DNA of 64,000 nt, taken from Vreelandella titanicae BH1. GTDB taxonomy: Bacteria; Pseudomonadota; Gammaproteobacteria; Pseudomonadales; Halomonadaceae. The DNA lies in NCBI RefSeq assembly GCF_000336575.1, contig NZ_AOPO01000020.1, positions 1-64,000 on the forward strand. The letters run 5' to 3'. This document shows, piece after piece, positions 50,697 through 56,632 of this stretch. Under the pieces are notes generated by a model. It did no database searches. It had not been told where the DNA came from and saw nothing but the letters and a program-made list of their open reading frames with translations. A program made the position numbers and the translations under genes. Position 1 is the first letter of the stretch, and the number at the start of each line of letters is the position of its first letter.

Positions 50697-51265
50697 GCGA
50701 ACAGGATCAAGCATCGGGTCTACGCAAGTGGGCAAACCTGCAGCGCCAACAGCAGCAAGCTGAGGGTACAGTTGATGTTGCGGCGGCAGAACACGTGCCG
50801 GAATCTAAACAGCCTACCTCTCTGTTAACGCCGACAGCTGCAGCGGTGGAAGAGCCAGCAACGGTGGTAGCGCACCAGCCCAAAATTCCGCTTATTGTGG
50901 TCGGGCTACCAGGTAGTGGTGCAGCCCAGGTGAACAAGGTTAAAGCAAGATTAGGGCAGTGGTCGACGTTAGGTCGAAGCTGGGCCGGTGATCCTGAGGA
51001 TTGGGATATTCATATCGTCATGGCCGAAACGACCGACCTAGCCCAACTTTGCGATCAATACAGCCGTTGGGCACTGTGGATCAGTAGCGATGCCGATACC
51101 TTTGCTTCCATGTTCCGTACCTTGCGTCAATTACATGAGCGTGGCGGGCCGCGCCGTTTGCTGGCGCTCCACGAGCCGCATTTGCCGCGTCAAGGGTTGC
51201 TCAATAACTTGCGTGAGGCAGCTGATTACTACTTAAATATGGAGCTGTTGGTACTTGCACGATGA
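50693..51265 (+). CDS. Unknown protein in the flhG/fleN position
   Basis: I do not recognise this 190-residue protein. It begins with GTG overlapping the flhF stop. Residues 1-60 are polar and probably disordered. From about 63 a compact domain starts with I-P-L-I-V-V-G-L-P-G-S-G-A-A, which looks like a P-loop missing its Lys and Ser/Thr. It continues with W-D-I-H-I-V-M and L-W-I-S-S-D-A-D-T-F, and ends in a helix-rich tail. In polar flagellates the MinD-like ATPase FlhG/FleN is encoded here, so a degenerate relative is possible but unproven. Lack of true Walker motifs argues against ATPase activity. Confidence 0.75.
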   Translation: MSEQDQASGLRKWANLQRQQQQAEGTVDVAAAEHVPESKQPTSLLTPTAAAVEEPATVVAHQPKIPLIVVGLPGSGAAQVNKVKARLGQWSTLGRSWAGDPEDWDIHIVMAETTDLAQLCDQYSRWALWISSDADTFASMFRTLRQLHERGGPRRLLALHEPHLPRQGLLNNLREAADYYLNMELLVLAR

Positions 51266-51290
51266 GCGCACTCTGCTGAGGAGACCAAGC

Positions 51291-51722
51291 ATGCTAAGCT
51301 GGCTATTAAGAGGGAGACTGCTACTGAGCCCAGTACTGCTGACAGGGTGTCTACTAGCAGGGTTAACGGGAAACGCTCAGGCGACACCCGGTAGCTGGAG
51401 CAGCCAGATACCAGGTCTGATGGTAGCGATGAGTGATAGGGCAAGTGCTAGTCAAAACGCTACCCCACCCGCTGCTGCTAACAATGTGGAGTCAGCACAG
51501 CTCGGGCGTATTCATTGGCAGTTTCAATATCCCCCTGGTGCGCTATTAAACGCTTGGCTGTGCCATCCTGAGCAGTGCGTTGCGTTAGCTGGCATGCGGG
51601 GGACTACCACTGCCCTGGCGGGGTTTGCCGCGGATGCGCCGTTGCATTTTCGCTTCGCTTTACGTCCGGGGCAGCGGCCTGTTCGTGTCCAGGGGCTGCA
51701 AATGATTGTGAACTATCAGTGA
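51291..51722 (+). CDS. flhE: Flagellar protein FlhE
   Basis: FlhE is a periplasmic protein, in enterobacteria encoded after flhBA and thought to guard against proton leak through the export gate. From ATG 51291 (GAGGAG with 7-base spacing) the product is 143 residues with a signal peptide ending near A-Q-A-T. The mature part contains L-C-H-P-E-Q-C-V-A-L, G-T-T-T-A-L-A-G-F-A-A-D-A-P-L-H-F and a final M-I-V-N-Y-Q, matching the E. coli FlhE C-terminus (ending V-I-V-N-Y-R). The Cys pair probably forms a disulphide. Finding it beside flhF and fliA is unusual. Confidence 0.85.
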   Translation: MLSWLLRGRLLLSPVLLTGCLLAGLTGNAQATPGSWSSQIPGLMVAMSDRASASQNATPPAAANNVESAQLGRIHWQFQYPPGALLNAWLCHPEQCVALAGMRGTTTALAGFAADAPLHFRFALRPGQRPVRVQGLQMIVNYQ

Positions 51723-51748
51723 AGGCTGGATAGACGCGAGGCGAGAGG

Positions 51749-52450
51749 ATGTACACAGCACAAGGCAGGATCAAACAGAGTGAGCTGTTGACGCAATACA
51801 TGCCACTGGTACGACGTCAGGCCTTGACGCTTCAGGTCCGTTTGCCAGCCAGCATTGAGCTCGACGACCTTATTCAAGCCGGGATGGTAGGGCTGCTGGA
51901 AGCACTGGGGCGCTTCGATGCCACCCAGGGGGCAACGTTCGCGACGTTTGCCAGTCAGCGTATTCGCGGTGCAATGATGGATGAATTACGTACCCGCGAC
52001 TGGTTGCCCCGCAGCGTGCGCCGCTCAGCGCGAGCGGTTGACAGTGCCGTTCGTCAATTAGAGCAACAGCTCGGACGGGCACCAGAAGAGAACGAAATCG
52101 CCCAACACCTTGAAATGCCGTTGAGTGAGTATCAGCAGCTCCTCAACGACACCAACAGTGGTCAACTGTTGCCGTTTGAAGAGCTGGTGGCCGACGGTGG
52201 CGAGCCTAGCAATAATGAATTGGCTAATTCACCGTTCGAGCAGTTGCTAGACGGCCAGCAACGACAAACGTTGATTGAGGCAATTGAAGCGCTGCCAGAG
52301 CGTGAAAAGCTGCTAATGGCGCTGTACTACCAAGAAGAACTCAACCTTAAGGAAGTAGGGGCTGTGTTGGGCGTCACGGAGTCACGCGTTTCACAACTGC
52401 ACAGCCAAGCCGTCAGCCGCTTACGCGCGCGTTTACACGACTCGGCATAA
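51749..52450 (+). CDS. fliA: Flagellar sigma factor FliA (sigma-28)
   Basis: FliA directs RNA polymerase to late flagellar promoters, four of which I find in this window. The 233-residue product has region 2 (L-V-R-R-Q-A-L-T-L, then D-D-L-I-Q-A-G-M-V-G-L-L-E-A and F-A-T-F-A-S-Q-R-I-R-G-A-M-M-D-E-L-R). Region 3 follows, and region 4 has L-P-E-R-E-K-L-L-M-A-L-Y-Y and G-V-T-E-S-R-V-S-Q-L-H. It starts at ATG 51749 and follows flhE by 26 bases. FlgM (1298) is its inhibitor. Confidence 0.97.
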   Translation: MYTAQGRIKQSELLTQYMPLVRRQALTLQVRLPASIELDDLIQAGMVGLLEALGRFDATQGATFATFASQRIRGAMMDELRTRDWLPRSVRRSARAVDSAVRQLEQQLGRAPEENEIAQHLEMPLSEYQQLLNDTNSGQLLPFEELVADGGEPSNNELANSPFEQLLDGQQRQTLIEAIEALPEREKLLMALYYQEELNLKEVGAVLGVTESRVSQLHSQAVSRLRARLHDSA

Positions 52451-52489
52451 CACCTCTTTTACTCACTTGTGACCGGCAAGGAGCCGTGG

Positions 52490-53311
52490 ATGAACCCTTC
52501 GACGCTGATAGGCATATTTGCCAGCATACTACTGTTGGTGAGCGTGCTGTTTTTCACCGCAGAGTCCCCTGAAAGTTTTATCAATTTGCCGGGTTTGGCC
52601 ATTGTGGTGACCGGTACCCTAGCGGCAACCTTTATCAGCTATCCGCTGAAAGAGGTGCTCCGCGTCGTACGGTTGGTGGGCTTGGTATTCCGGCGCGAAA
52701 ATACCTATATGCGTGACGATATCCGCGAATTGGTGGATATGTCGCGACTCTGGTTTAAGGGCGATGTACGTGCTGTCGAGCGCGAGTTGGAGCATACCCG
52801 AAACCCGTTTTTGCGTACCGGGATCCAACTGGTCATTGCCAACACCAAAGAGGATGAAATTTTTGACATGCTGCGTTGGCGCATTGCCCGTCTTAAAGCG
52901 CGTGAGCATGCCGAGGCACAAATATTCCGTACCATGGCCACCTACGCACCCGCATTTGGCATGATCGGCACCCTGGTGGGGCTGGTCAATATGCTGGAAG
53001 TCATGGACGCAGGCGACCTGCAGGTGATCGGCCCGCGCATGGCGGTGGCCCTGCTCACCACCTTCTACGGCATTTTACTCGCCAACTTGGTGTTTAAGCC
53101 GATTGCGGTGAAACTCGAGCGCCGCACCGAAGAGCGGCTGATTACCATGAACATGGTGCTGGAAGGTATTTCGCTGATTACCAAGCGCCGCCTGCCGTCG
53201 TTTATTGAAGAGACCCTCAACTCGTTTGTAGCTAACTATCACGATGAAATCCGTGATAACAGCGTCAAACCAAGGCCTGATTCGTCGGTTAGTGCGGCGG
53301 CGAAGGGGTAG
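52490..53311 (+). CDS. motC: Second stator protein, MotC/PomA type
   Basis: This MotA-family protein is distinct from the MotA at 32036. From ATG 52490 (AAGGAG with 6-base spacing) it has 273 residues. It begins S-T-L-I-G-I-F-A-S-I-L-L-L-V-S-V-L, then has I-V-V-T-G-T-L-A-A-T-F-I-S-Y-P and later Y-A-P-A-F-G-M-I-G-T-L-V-G-L-V. The cytoplasmic loop and overall layout resemble PomA/MotC, partners of Pseudomonas MotD or Vibrio PomB. It is next to fliA and the matching MotB-type gene, as in Pseudomonas. The symbol is provisional. Confidence 0.88.
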   Translation: MNPSTLIGIFASILLLVSVLFFTAESPESFINLPGLAIVVTGTLAATFISYPLKEVLRVVRLVGLVFRRENTYMRDDIRELVDMSRLWFKGDVRAVERELEHTRNPFLRTGIQLVIANTKEDEIFDMLRWRIARLKAREHAEAQIFRTMATYAPAFGMIGTLVGLVNMLEVMDAGDLQVIGPRMAVALLTTFYGILLANLVFKPIAVKLERRTEERLITMNMVLEGISLITKRRLPSFIEETLNSFVANYHDEIRDNSVKPRPDSSVSAAAKG

Positions 53312-53316
53312 GCCAG

Positions 53317-53991
53317 ATGCTTGACCGTGATACGCGCCACGCACTGGAAATGACGCCGTCGCCAGGCGATGGTGACGAGGGTTGGCTAACCAGCTATTTG
53401 GATGTGCTGACGCTGCTAATCACGCTCTTTGTGCTGCTGCTTTCACTGACACCGCCGGGAGGCGGTGAGGCGGCTGATACTGCTTTCATGCGCTCGGCTA
53501 GCGCTGTATCATCATTGCCGCTGGCGTCTCTAGCCACTGGTATTCAGCCCCGCCATTCAGGGGTTCAGCCGCAGTTTGATGGGCTCGACATCCCCGGTGT
53601 CAGTGTTTCGCAAGGGAGTGAAGGGGTCACGTTACGTATTGATACCAGCCTTTTATTTCCCAGCGGTCAAGCTGTACTGACTTCCCGTGGGCAAGAGGTG
53701 GTAGAAAGCCTTATCGATGTGCTGACCCGTTTTGACGGTCAGATTTCGGTAGAAGGCCACACCGACAGCGTGCCTATTTCAACGGCCCGCTTCCCCTCTA
53801 ATTGGGAGCTTTCATCAGCGCGGGCTATCGCTGTGGTGAGGCATTTAGAGCGCCAAGGATTCAATATCTCTCGTATGCGGGCCGTCGGTTATGCCGACAC
53901 CCAACCCATGGAACCGAACGCAACGGAGGAGGGCCGAGCTGCCAACCGTCGCGTAGAGTTGTTGCTAAGGCAGCAGGTCGAGGGTGAATAG
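53317..53991 (+). CDS. motD: Second stator protein, MotD/PomB type
   Basis: This 224-residue MotB-family protein has one transmembrane helix starting at W-L-T-S-Y-L-D-V-L-T-L-L-I-T-L-F-V-L-L-L-S-L, with the ion-binding aspartate at about position 29. The periplasmic OmpA-like domain has V-E-G-H-T-D-S-V-P and N-R-R-V-E-L-L-L. It is short compared with MotB at 32902. It pairs with the MotC/PomA-type gene six bases upstream. Whether protons or sodium drive it cannot be decided from sequence alone. The symbol is provisional. Confidence 0.88.
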   Translation: MLDRDTRHALEMTPSPGDGDEGWLTSYLDVLTLLITLFVLLLSLTPPGGGEAADTAFMRSASAVSSLPLASLATGIQPRHSGVQPQFDGLDIPGVSVSQGSEGVTLRIDTSLLFPSGQAVLTSRGQEVVESLIDVLTRFDGQISVEGHTDSVPISTARFPSNWELSSARAIAVVRHLERQGFNISRMRAVGYADTQPMEPNATEEGRAANRRVELLLRQQVEGE

Positions 53992-54008
53992 ATTGCGAGG
54001 CCACGTTT

Positions 54009-56021
54009 GTGTCCATGTACCACCCGCGGTTGCAGTCGTTTGGAGCTCTGCTGGTTTTAGATGCCGATTGTCGCCGCATTCAAGCCAGTAGCACCAACTT
54101 AACCCGCTTGACCGGTATTGAGCGCCCTGAAAATGGGCCGCACACTCTTGCCTATGTGTTAGGAAAACGGCTAAGCCAGCGGGTGCGCCGCGAGTTGCAG
54201 GGGCAGCAGAAACTCTCCGGCCCGCTGGTGTTTATTCGTTCCAAGCATAGCTACATGCGTTTTCAGCTCTATGCTTACCGAGCAGGTGGGAAGGTCATCG
54301 TCGAGATTGAGCCACTCAACCCCCAAGGTAAGCGCCGCCTGCTTGGCACAGTCAATGAGCGGCTGATGCATTTAGCCGACGCAACCCACCAGGAAGAGCT
54401 GCTCGACTGCTTGGTTAACGCTATTCAACAGCTCACCGGCCATGATCGCGTCACCGTGTGCCATTTCGACAGTGATTGGCATGGTTTAATGGTTGCCGAA
54501 GCGCTGGGCAACCAGCTGCCTTCGCTGTTGGGTCAGCGCTTCCCCTCAAGCGACTTCCCTGTCGCCTTACGCAAAAGTTACCAACTTTACCCCGTTCGGT
54601 TAATTGAAGACGTCGATGCGCCGCCTGAAACGCTGACTCCCGCCTACTCGGGAGTCAGCCTTAGCGGCAGCTTTTTACGCGCCCCTGCCCCTGAGCGGCA
54701 GCGGTATTTAAATCGCCTGGGGGTGCGTGGGTCATTCAGTTTGGCCATGCAGGGGGATACTGGCTTATGGGGTCTAGTGTTTTGCCATTCGCCAGCACCG
54801 CACTCGGTTGCACCCCCCGTGCGTGATGCCGTTCGCACCCTCGTGCAAATGGCCACCCAGCGCATGCTGTTGCTACGGGCGCGTCAAGAAGCCCGCTACC
54901 TACAACGGGTTCAGGATAGCCTCGTGCTCAGTGCGCGAACGCGCAGCGAGCCGCAAAGTCCCCAACAGTTACTTCATGAGCAGGCGGCTATCTGGATGAA
55001 GCTGTTTCGCGCCCATGGCGTGGTGCTGTGGGTGAATGGTGGCGCTTATCAAGCGGGTGTGACGCCGACTCCAGAAGCGATAAGCCAGTTTGTGCTGCGC
55101 CTGGAAAGAACTCATGTACATAGCGGCCCTTGGTGCACGCGCGAAATCGGCAAAGAGACGTTAACCGCTTCGCTAGCCATGCCCGAGCAGTGTGGGGCTC
55201 TAGCAGTGCCGCTGCCAATGAGTTCGACCCAGCGCGCCTGGCTGATTTTTTTTCGCCCCGAGCAGGTGGAAACGCTGTATTGGGCGATGCAGCCTACAAC
55301 CAACCCTAAACCGGCCGTGATATTGGCTCCATCGGTTGCTTGGTCTGAAGAGGTAGTCGGCAGAAGTGAAGCGTGGCTGCGGGTAGAGCGCTTAGCGGCG
55401 GTAGACTTGGGGGAAGACCTGACGCTGGCGATTTCTGCCTATGAAATTAGCTCACTGAATATGCACCTGGAGCACGAACGCAAAGCCCTTGCCGAAGCCA
55501 ACCAGCGTCTTGAGCAATTAGCCCATTTCGATCCTCTAACCAAGGTGTGGAACCGTTACCGCATCGAAGAAGCGATCAATGCAGAGCTGGTGGCTGCCAA
55601 GCGCTATGCGGCCGCTTTTGCCTTGCTACTGTTCGATGTGGATAACTTTAAGCAGATCAACGATGCTCACGGCCATAGCGTGGGTGACGATGTGCTGGTG
55701 GCCCTGGCGCGCTTAGTGGAAAGCTCGCTGCGTGGCTGCGACCACCTGGGCCGTTGGGGAGGCGAAGAGTTTATTGTGCTGGCGACTCATTCCGATGTTG
55801 ATGCCGCCACTGGCCTGGCTGAGCGGCTGCGCTCGCTGGTAGAAGAGCTGCGTATAGAGGGCGTTGAGCAAACGGTTACAGTGAGTATCGGTGTCGCCGT
55901 TTGGCAGCCGGGTGACAGCTGTAAAACCCTTATCTCCCGGGCTGATGACGCCATGTACCGCGCTAAGCATGGCGGACGCAACCGCGTTGAAATGGCGCTT
56001 GAGCCTGTGGTGCTGATTTAA
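54009..56021 (+). CDS. Phytochrome-like diguanylate cyclase (PAS-GAF-PHY-GGDEF)
   Basis: The 670-residue protein has the bacteriophytochrome layout. A PAS domain (4-105) begins Y-H-P-R-L-Q-S-F-G-A-L-L. A GAF domain (115-290) has H-F-D-S-D-W-H-G and F-P-S-S-D-F-P (usually D-I-P). A PHY-like domain (300-480) has W-S-E-E-V-V-G-R-S. A GGDEF domain (505-662) has G-G-E-E-F at 584-588 and I-site R-G-C-D at 575-578. The biliverdin Cys that precedes the PAS in bacteriophytochromes is missing, because the protein starts at M-S-M-Y-H. The conserved GAF His in S-P-x-H is Arg here. It probably makes c-di-GMP but may bind no bilin. It is 17 bases after the motD-type gene. Confidence 0.87.
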   Translation: MSMYHPRLQSFGALLVLDADCRRIQASSTNLTRLTGIERPENGPHTLAYVLGKRLSQRVRRELQGQQKLSGPLVFIRSKHSYMRFQLYAYRAGGKVIVEIEPLNPQGKRRLLGTVNERLMHLADATHQEELLDCLVNAIQQLTGHDRVTVCHFDSDWHGLMVAEALGNQLPSLLGQRFPSSDFPVALRKSYQLYPVRLIEDVDAPPETLTPAYSGVSLSGSFLRAPAPERQRYLNRLGVRGSFSLAMQGDTGLWGLVFCHSPAPHSVAPPVRDAVRTLVQMATQRMLLLRARQEARYLQRVQDSLVLSARTRSEPQSPQQLLHEQAAIWMKLFRAHGVVLWVNGGAYQAGVTPTPEAISQFVLRLERTHVHSGPWCTREIGKETLTASLAMPEQCGALAVPLPMSSTQRAWLIFFRPEQVETLYWAMQPTTNPKPAVILAPSVAWSEEVVGRSEAWLRVERLAAVDLGEDLTLAISAYEISSLNMHLEHERKALAEANQRLEQLAHFDPLTKVWNRYRIEEAINAELVAAKRYAAAFALLLFDVDNFKQINDAHGHSVGDDVLVALARLVESSLRGCDHLGRWGGEEFIVLATHSDVDAATGLAERLRSLVEELRIEGVEQTVTVSIGVAVWQPGDSCKTLISRADDAMYRAKHGGRNRVEMALEPVVLI

Positions 56022-56029
56022 GCAAACCT

Positions 56030-56632
56030 TTAGGTGCCACTACCTTCACACTGGGTGAGCATCCGGTTGATCGCCGCATCGGCGCCTTTTAGGCTAAAGG
56101 TCATATACCACGGCTCGCGCTCGTCCTGGTCGAAGCCGAGAAATAGCTGCTCCCCCTGGCGCATGTCGGCCATCAGTGATGCCAAGTCACTTAAATAAAA
56201 GTGAGCATAAAACCCGTCATCGCCGCGCTCAGTGATAAATTCCGCCATGGTGTCGATAACGGGCCGCTCATCGATGCGCAGCCGAGTGGGCACCAGGTTT
56301 ACTGTACGGCTCTCTCCCTGCTGCTGCTCAAGGGTGACGCGCATCTCCAGCCAGGGTAAATCGCAAACGCCCGAGGTGGCATTCAAGCTCAGCGTCGCAT
56401 CCGAGTAGCTGTGGGTTTCTACCGCCCGATAGTGGCGTTCGCCCCCCAGTGAGAGCGTCATTGACTGCCAATGGTCGTGGGTGGCCACATCGTCGGTATT
56501 GAAGGTGGTCGCGTTAGCGACGGGCGTAGCGACCATCCACATGGTCGCTATCGCCACAACGGTAAACGTGAGCGTGCAAAGATACTGGGATGGAGAGCGC
56601 AGGAAGTGAGTTGCGGACATGATTAAAGCCAT
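56030..56632 (-). CDS. Secreted protein of unknown function
   Basis: I do not recognise this 200-residue protein. It has an N-terminal hydrophobic stretch (about 19-40) with a likely signal cleavage near A-N-A, and a mature beta-rich part. Two cysteines (in G-V-C-D-L and near the C-terminus in L-T-Q-C-E) could form a disulphide. It is convergent with the diguanylate cyclase, with an 8-base gap, and divergent from nrdJa. A periplasmic location is inferred. Start could be the second Met (56620). Confidence 0.7.
   Translation of the reverse strand: MALIMSATHFLRSPSQYLCTLTFTVVAIATMWMVATPVANATTFNTDDVATHDHWQSMTLSLGGERHYRAVETHSYSDATLSLNATSGVCDLPWLEMRVTLEQQQGESRTVNLVPTRLRIDERPVIDTMAEFITERGDDGFYAHFYLSDLASLMADMRQGEQLFLGFDQDEREPWYMTFSLKGADAAINRMLTQCEGSGT

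Follow-up and report, generated by a model that had tools for sequence, protein, structure and literature searches.

Proteins built from phytochrome modules are usually taken to be photoreceptors. Within this group, the PadCs are defined by an N-terminal Cys, the DIP and PRxSF motifs, a GGDEF/GGEEF motif and red-light control of the cyclase, according to the accessible part of PMC9587094. The same source reported in 2022 a protein from Halomonas meridiana, HmPadC+14, that is without all essential motifs and was left uncharacterised; its expression was too low for purification (PMC9587094). In P. aeruginosa, the stator protein MotC binds the diguanylate cyclase SadC and stimulates it, as stated in the available text of PMC12288467. 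Other Halomonas cyclases are described in PMC5907407 and PMC12421958, as far as their accessible portions go. Beyond PMC9587094, we found no further report of a chromophore-less phytochrome in the openly licensed literature. Since a motif-less protein is already in print, the oddity described here is only partly new, and what we add is the clade and its evolutionary setting.

The window analysed here, a stretch of 64,000 nucleotides from Vreelandella titanicae BH1, encodes a phytochrome-type diguanylate cyclase of 670 aa without bilin motifs (54009-56021, GTG start). This gene and all features given below lie on the + strand. The open reading frame, the Pfam matches and homology to IsPadC of Idiomarina bore out the start, end and strand given by the first-pass annotation, as well as the match of its PAS, GAF and PHY regions to phytochromes. 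In a Pfam-A search, PAS_2 (residues 8-102, 54030-54314, E 1.1e-9), GAF (residues 129-284, 54393-54860), PHY (residues 299-474, 54903-55430) and GGDEF (residues 505-659, 55521-55985) appeared in this order, every one above its cut-off; there was no membrane domain among the Pfam domains. Alignment with IsPadC delimits a coiled-coil linker (residues 471-507, 55419-55529) that is seven residues longer than in IsPadC. IsPadC (PDB 5llw) is also the best solved relative by sequence, with an E value of 7.4e-102 over residues 7-660. Judged from sequence, the phytochrome resemblance is far beyond chance. An AlphaFold2 model built from 67 aligned sequences (mean pLDDT 87.5, pTM 0.66) again had IsPadC as its best PDB match (Foldseek E 1.6e-60, TM 0.68), so that Pfam order, model and Foldseek match all show the PAS-GAF-PHY fold of phytochromes. 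The model predicts a linker helix spanning residues 458-506 and a tongue of two short strands with a tip of low confidence.

The residues expected to hold a bilin are largely gone. In the GAF domain, the S-P-x-H motif reads A-P-E-R (A227, P228, R230), and the replacement of its His by Arg had been recognised in the first-pass annotation; the Ser is lost besides. The DIP motif is D-F-P (D182-F183-P184), as claimed there too. Overlooked at that stage was the loss of the PRxSF motif from the PHY tongue, which reads L-A-P-S-V-A-W and is 3 residues shorter than in IsPadC. The pocket changes in the GAF domain comprise C151, F183, A227, R230 and F258. On the output side, the GGEEF motif (residues 584-588) and the I-site RxxD (R575 to D578) are intact, in line with the earlier reading, and both are invariant among the 67 aligned relatives. 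The protein thus has the active site and I-site of a diguanylate cyclase and lacks the GAF His of bilin-binding phytochromes. Of the sequence features that define PadCs, it has the GGDEF/GGEEF motif but neither the N-terminal Cys nor DIP nor PRxSF, and it is therefore not a PadC by the definition in the accessible part of PMC9587094.

These changes are shared widely within the genus. In DrBphP numbering, the position of His260 holds Arg in 35 and Gln in 1 of the 36 intact Vreelandella orthologs, Tyr176 is replaced by Cys in 36/36, Ile208 (the I of DIP) by Phe in 33/36 and in none is it Ile, and Ser257 is Ala in 33/36. The replacement residues Cys151, Phe183 and Arg230 of the window protein accordingly recur in 36, 33 and 35 of the 36. 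Other pocket residues survive: the equivalent of Asp207 is kept in 34/36, that of His290 mostly, and those of Tyr216, Arg222, Arg254 and Tyr263, which we presume to act on the propionate side of the bilin, in 36/36. Among nine bilin-less relatives from other genera, Tyr216 is kept in 2 and Arg222 in 6. Several conserved Cys and His residues (Cys151, His158, Cys259, His369, Cys376 and others) are candidates for a redox or metal site.

We also examined the N-terminus, where the biliverdin Cys had been described as absent and a stop codon as lying in frame just upstream. Both statements were confirmed. A TGA at 53985-53987, eight codons 5' of the GTG and with seven codons between them, limits the N-terminus, and a GAGG at 53997-54000, 8 nt 5' of the GTG, is a plausible ribosome-binding site. 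From the first ATG, GTG or TTG up to the PAS motif, none of the 36 intact orthologs has a Cys. The GTG start is common to 32 of them, while L030, L034, L035 and L037 have a different start; the N-terminus is longer in L028, L029 and L036, yet without a Cys. Because the GTG recurs in 32/36 and all 36 lack a Cys after their first start codon, a frameshift or sequencing error as the cause of the missing N-terminus was rejected. A TGC codon (53994-53996) sits at about the position of the biliverdin Cys. We rejected it as a relic of that residue, since its position is between the TGA and the ribosome site and just 5/36 orthologs have it at the same place, and we read it as chance. In L009, L020 and L035, a Cys is found elsewhere in frame, 5' of the first start codon. 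A scan of 51600-56200 gave one promoter and one terminator, each below the shuffled mean.

Of 61 genomes of the same genus, a full open copy of the gene is present in 36 and an interrupted one in 4 (G005, G015, G045 and G046); in 21 none was found. Since the completeness of the four genomes with interrupted copies is 100, 89, 86 and 80, assembly faults may explain some of the interruptions. Every one of the 36 named relatives carries the label Vreelandella or Halomonas, and the closest is that of V. sedimenti (96%); 11 further same-genus genomes with an ortholog were left out of the alignment. From 250 Halomonadaceae genomes searched, we fetched 40 stretches, and these added nine proteins from outside the genus that have no Cys, His or PRxSF, so that these three features are absent from all 45 bilin-less proteins (a bilin-less-like fragment in G245 was left out of the counts). 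Full canonical PadCs, 22 in number, came from the same search, and in 22/22 the Cys, DIP, His and PRxSF are intact; two fragments that have the canonical motifs (L146, L147) and two more distant GGDEF phytochromes (L143, L144) are outside this set.

In a careful tree of 42 rows (14 of the 36 Vreelandella, all nine other-genus bilin-less and 10 of the 22 canonical proteins among them), a branch with 100/100 support set the 23 bilin-less rows apart from the rest. A quick tree of 88 rows, which left out interrupted and partial copies, L149-L152 and the intact ortholog L030 and thus held 35 Vreelandella rows, likewise united its 44 bilin-less rows in one group (SH-aLRT 99). IsPadC fell outside this group in both trees. 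The canonical PadCs did not resolve as a clade (42/6 in the careful tree) and long branches are present; with these provisos, the single bilin-less group fits one loss, and the motifs of a Halomonadaceae PadC would most simply have been lost once. Both kinds of gene can occur together. G264, of the window's genus, carries a canonical PadC (L132) in addition to its bilin-less ortholog. In G133, one stretch (L117:5054-12768) contains a bilin-less cyclase and a canonical PadC about 3 kb apart; a GGDEF-EAL gene separates the two, and a heme oxygenase gene adjoins the canonical one.

Some further phytochrome-like cyclases came up in these searches. The V. titanicae genome has a second, shorter relative of 473 aa (G000:C22, L043:5077-6495, - strand) in which nothing but the last part of a GAF-like region, a partial PHY and a GGDEF domain is left; it appears to be another phytochrome cyclase that has been stripped down, and genes like it occur in many Vreelandella genomes. 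Two cyclases of other Halomonadaceae, L152:4017-5573 (+) and L149:3723-5669 (+), have PAS_2 and GGDEF but yield no match to PHY, or have PAS_2, a partial PHY and GGDEF but yield none to GAF. L143 (G098), a GGDEF phytochrome of 718 aa, has intact DIP, SPVH and PRHSF motifs and His-Gly-Glu-Asn in its N-terminal segment, where L144 has Asn-Cys-Glu-Lys.

The supply of bilin was judged from heme oxygenase genes. The V. titanicae genome has no match to PF01126 or DUF2470 (PF10615), the two families searched. Of the 36 genomes with an intact gene, 14 have a PF01126 match and 22 none. With interrupted copies included, heme oxygenase occurs in 15/40 genomes with the gene and 3/21 without it (p 0.079, towards co-occurrence); as the two are not opposed, we rejected heme oxygenase as a feature that separates the two sets of genomes. 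Within the genus, 14 genomes carry stand-alone canonical phytochromes (L057-L070), mostly of about 500-560 aa, with L057 split and L070 cut short. A PF01126 match was found in 13 of these 14 genomes versus 5 of the 47 others, and in those 13 it directly adjoins the stand-alone phytochrome. The fetched flanks were searched by blastp against two reference oxygenases. Heme oxygenase was found in this way near 17/22 canonical PadCs, near none of the 36 named bilin-less Vreelandella loci, and near one of the nine bilin-less loci of other genera, the one being L117.

The cyclase gene follows a set of flagellar genes. Upstream, the order is flhF, a gene of 190 residues without a name, flhE (51255-51722, Pfam E 2.1e-15), a FliA-type sigma factor gene (51749-52450), a MotC-type stator gene (52469-53311, MotA_ExbB by Pfam) and a MotD-type stator gene (53317-53991, MotB_plug and OmpA by Pfam) that ends 17 nt 5' of the cyclase start. 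The labels flhF and fliA are provisional; the FliA-type gene, like motC and motD, is a conserved neighbour. The motC-motD pair lies immediately 5' of the cyclase in 35 of the 36 named loci. The exception is V. zhuhanensis (L104, G029), with an open cyclase gene and then a gene resembling a GGDEF/EAL protein. At E 1e-30 MotD is without a match in its genome, where MotC and FliA have only relatives at 34% and 31%, and this absence of MotC, MotD and FliA orthologs suggests that the species lost its flagella and kept the cyclase.

Among 38 same-genus genomes, 22 have the gene (interrupted copies included) and MotD, 1 the gene without MotD, 9 MotD without the gene and 6 neither (Fisher p 0.0096, uncorrected for kinship). 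In eight of the nine genomes with MotD alone, we looked at what follows: the gene usually found after the cyclase stands directly behind MotD in 7, and a GGDEF-like gene in 1. The cyclase can therefore be cleanly absent, and as this holds for several species that keep motCD, it is dispensable there. No MotC or MotD was present within the fetched stretch of any of the nine bilin-less loci of other genera, one of which (L118) adjoins flhF-fliA genes. A GGDEF-EAL gene lies 3' of the cyclase in several other loci (by domains in L088, L098 and L117, in the rest by similarity). The first-pass annotation had tied the cyclase to this second stator pair. The synteny stands, but the pairing is not obligatory, as V. 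zhuhanensis and the motCD loci without the gene show.

Selection was estimated from pairs whose dS fell within a fixed range (in Vreelandella 30 or 40 of 630 pairs, among canonical PadCs 124 of 231). In Vreelandella (40 pairs), the median dN/dS was 0.155 for PAS, 0.079 for GAF, 0.071 for the PHY core, 0.135 for the tongue, 0.016 for the linker and 0.041 for GGDEF, versus 0.24-0.36 across all parts of canonical PadCs (124 pairs), a rough comparison because the two sets are not alike in genus or in synonymous divergence. These values point to strong purifying selection and no decay.

Counted from L471 to the DxLT motif, the linker has 37 residues in all 45 bilin-less proteins; in the 22 canonical PadCs it measures 30 residues in 17, 37 in 4 and 23 in 1. 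In Vreelandella it is the most conserved stretch of the protein. Across the 36 Vreelandella sequences, invariant columns make up 24/38 of the linker, 75/153 of GGDEF and 32/171 of GAF; in canonical PadCs the counts are 50/153 for GGDEF, 53/171 for GAF and 6/38 for the linker, the last lowered by seven gap columns of shorter linkers that count as variable. The invariant fractions of GAF and GGDEF are thus 0.19 and 0.49 in Vreelandella versus 0.31 and 0.33 in canonical PadCs. In an analysis whose thinned comparison used 25/36 Vreelandella and 20/22 canonical sequences, entropies for linker versus GGDEF were 0.32 versus 0.53 in Vreelandella and 0.94 versus 0.83 in the nine other-genus relatives. 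In the same analysis, the nineteen positions that we take, from DrBphP structures, to form the pocket exceed the remaining GAF positions in conservation by far in canonical PadCs (p 0.0002), weakly in Vreelandella (p 0.048) and not in the nine other-genus relatives (p 0.12). Most of the special conservation of the pocket is thus gone in Vreelandella. Together, the invariant columns, entropies and pocket p values indicate that in Vreelandella the linker gained constraint at the expense of the pocket, with strong selection persisting over the whole protein. This shift shows in Vreelandella alone; beyond the genus, the fixed linker length is all that is shared.

Key pigment-holding residues are lost, yet selection is strong across the genus, and therefore the cyclase probably answers to something other than light. 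Our preferred reading, which we would give a probability of roughly 0.6, is that of an active, bilin-independent diguanylate cyclase derived from a light-regulated PadC, whose PAS-GAF-PHY part would serve mainly as a dimer scaffold that sets linker register and output, with feedback at the I-site. Its core, independence from bilin, we regard as very probable; that the input comes through the scaffold or a partner is put at somewhat less than an even chance. Most simply, a single loss would have stripped a Halomonadaceae PadC of biliverdin Cys, GAF His and PRxSF tongue, and the descendant would have been kept with dimer architecture and coiled-coil linker. The window protein descends from a PadC and may use the same linker mechanism. 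By analogy with the established PadC mechanism, the dimer state of PAS-GAF-PHY would reach the GGDEF pair by way of the coiled coil, linker register would set cyclase output, and the product would feed back at the I-site. Without a pigment, a photocycle could not be the input; a protein partner or the state of the cell would be a likelier one than light. A fixed linker and a freed pocket are read most simply as a scaffold with linker-set output. The MotCD stator is a plausible input or target, controlling or controlled: the synteny, and the contact of MotC with SadC described in the accessible part of PMC12288467, make it one candidate. It is unlikely to be the sole role, because V. zhuhanensis retains the cyclase in a genome where motC, motD and fliA went undetected.

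Several results count against the preferred reading and bear on its rivals. The surviving equivalents of Asp207, Tyr216, Arg222, Arg254, Tyr263 and His290 would allow a non-covalent bilin, and 14/36 gene-bearing genomes have a PF01126 match. That the protein is still a photoreceptor holding biliverdin non-covalently nevertheless seems to us quite improbable: the Cys, His260, PRxSF and Tyr176 are all lost, the V. titanicae genome has no match to either oxygenase family, none of the 36 named loci has a heme oxygenase within the fetched flanks, and Arg replaces His in 35/36, thus in genomes with and without the enzyme. A pocket p value of 0.048 would also fit a ligand. The GAF pocket may have been rebuilt for another small, probably anionic molecule that drives the cyclase along the old phytochrome path, as the first-pass annotation proposed in outline. 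What stood of that proposal is a scaffold kept under strong selection after loss of the chromophore site, with conserved replacements and, in the V. titanicae genome, no heme oxygenase of the two families searched. The Arg/Tyr residues present in 36/36, the near-fixed Cys151, Phe183 and Arg230 and the low absolute dN/dS of GAF would suit a new ligand too. The ligand itself remains a tentative idea: in Vreelandella the pocket stands out from the rest of GAF only weakly, GAF is less constrained relative to the cyclase domain than it is in canonical PadCs, and in the nine other-genus relatives the pocket does not stand out and Tyr216 and Arg222 are kept in 2 and 6.

A comparably tentative alternative couples the cyclase to the stator, with MotC or MotD binding and controlling it, or the cyclase feeding c-di-GMP locally to MotCD. 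The upstream motC-motD pair in 35/36 loci, the presence of MotD in 22 of the 23 gene-bearing genomes among the 38 and the stimulation of SadC by MotC (available text of PMC12288467) speak for such a coupling, and it is opposed by the open gene of V. zhuhanensis, by MotD without the gene in 9/38 genomes and by the lack of MotC and MotD in the fetched stretch of 9/9 other-genus loci. The dispensability of the gene in motCD species and the restriction of the linker shift to Vreelandella weigh on the preferred reading as well. The parallel with SadC is further loosened by its being a membrane protein, whereas the window protein has no membrane domain among its Pfam domains; SadC also has, to our knowledge, no phytochrome part. 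A decaying remnant without function is the least credible reading. The four interrupted copies, some maybe assembly faults, and the 21/61 genomes in which no copy was found would fit it, but dN/dS is far below 1 in every domain, 36/61 genomes have open full-length copies and the catalytic residues are invariant.

Returning to the bilin-independent scaffold, a bolder form of it may be put forward as a speculation. One loss event could have produced a light-blind cyclase in which, within Vreelandella, control moved from pocket to linker and a protein partner acts on the linker; the MotCD stator or some other component of the cell could be that partner. We know of no phytochrome that works by such partner control of the linker. 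A bilin-less clade beside intact light-receptor relatives allows us to ask what role a pigment-free phytochrome scaffold plays and how far the linker alone sets cyclase output. Natural test cases are L117, with canonical and bilin-less genes close together, and V. zhuhanensis, with the gene but no detected motC, motD or fliA.

Compared with the described systems, the locus resembles SadC-MotC in linking a diguanylate cyclase with a MotCD stator, but the link reported in the accessible part of PMC12288467 is physical and tested, whereas here it consists of gene order. HmPadC+14 is closer. H. meridiana is listed as Vreelandella aquamarina, and that species has an ortholog at the same motC-motD position (L106). 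The "+14" in the name fits the seven extra linker residues of the window protein, a likeness drawn from the description in PMC9587094. That paper, in its available text, treats one protein; the clade, the heme oxygenase test, the synteny and the selection estimates come from the present analysis. IsPadC of Idiomarina sp. A28L (5llw) shares the PAS-GAF-PHY-coiled coil-GGEEF order and homology over residues 7-660. It differs in having Cys17, DIP, the His, PRxSF and red-light control, according to the accessible part of PMC9587094; of these motifs, the window protein retains no more than the Asp and Pro of DIP, and it has seven additional residues in the linker. The nearest intact relatives in our trees are the canonical Halomonadaceae PadCs (for example L132, L121 and the minus-strand gene of L117), which have the same domain order but differ in their intact bilin motifs (22/22), a heme oxygenase nearby (17/22) and a shorter linker (18/22).
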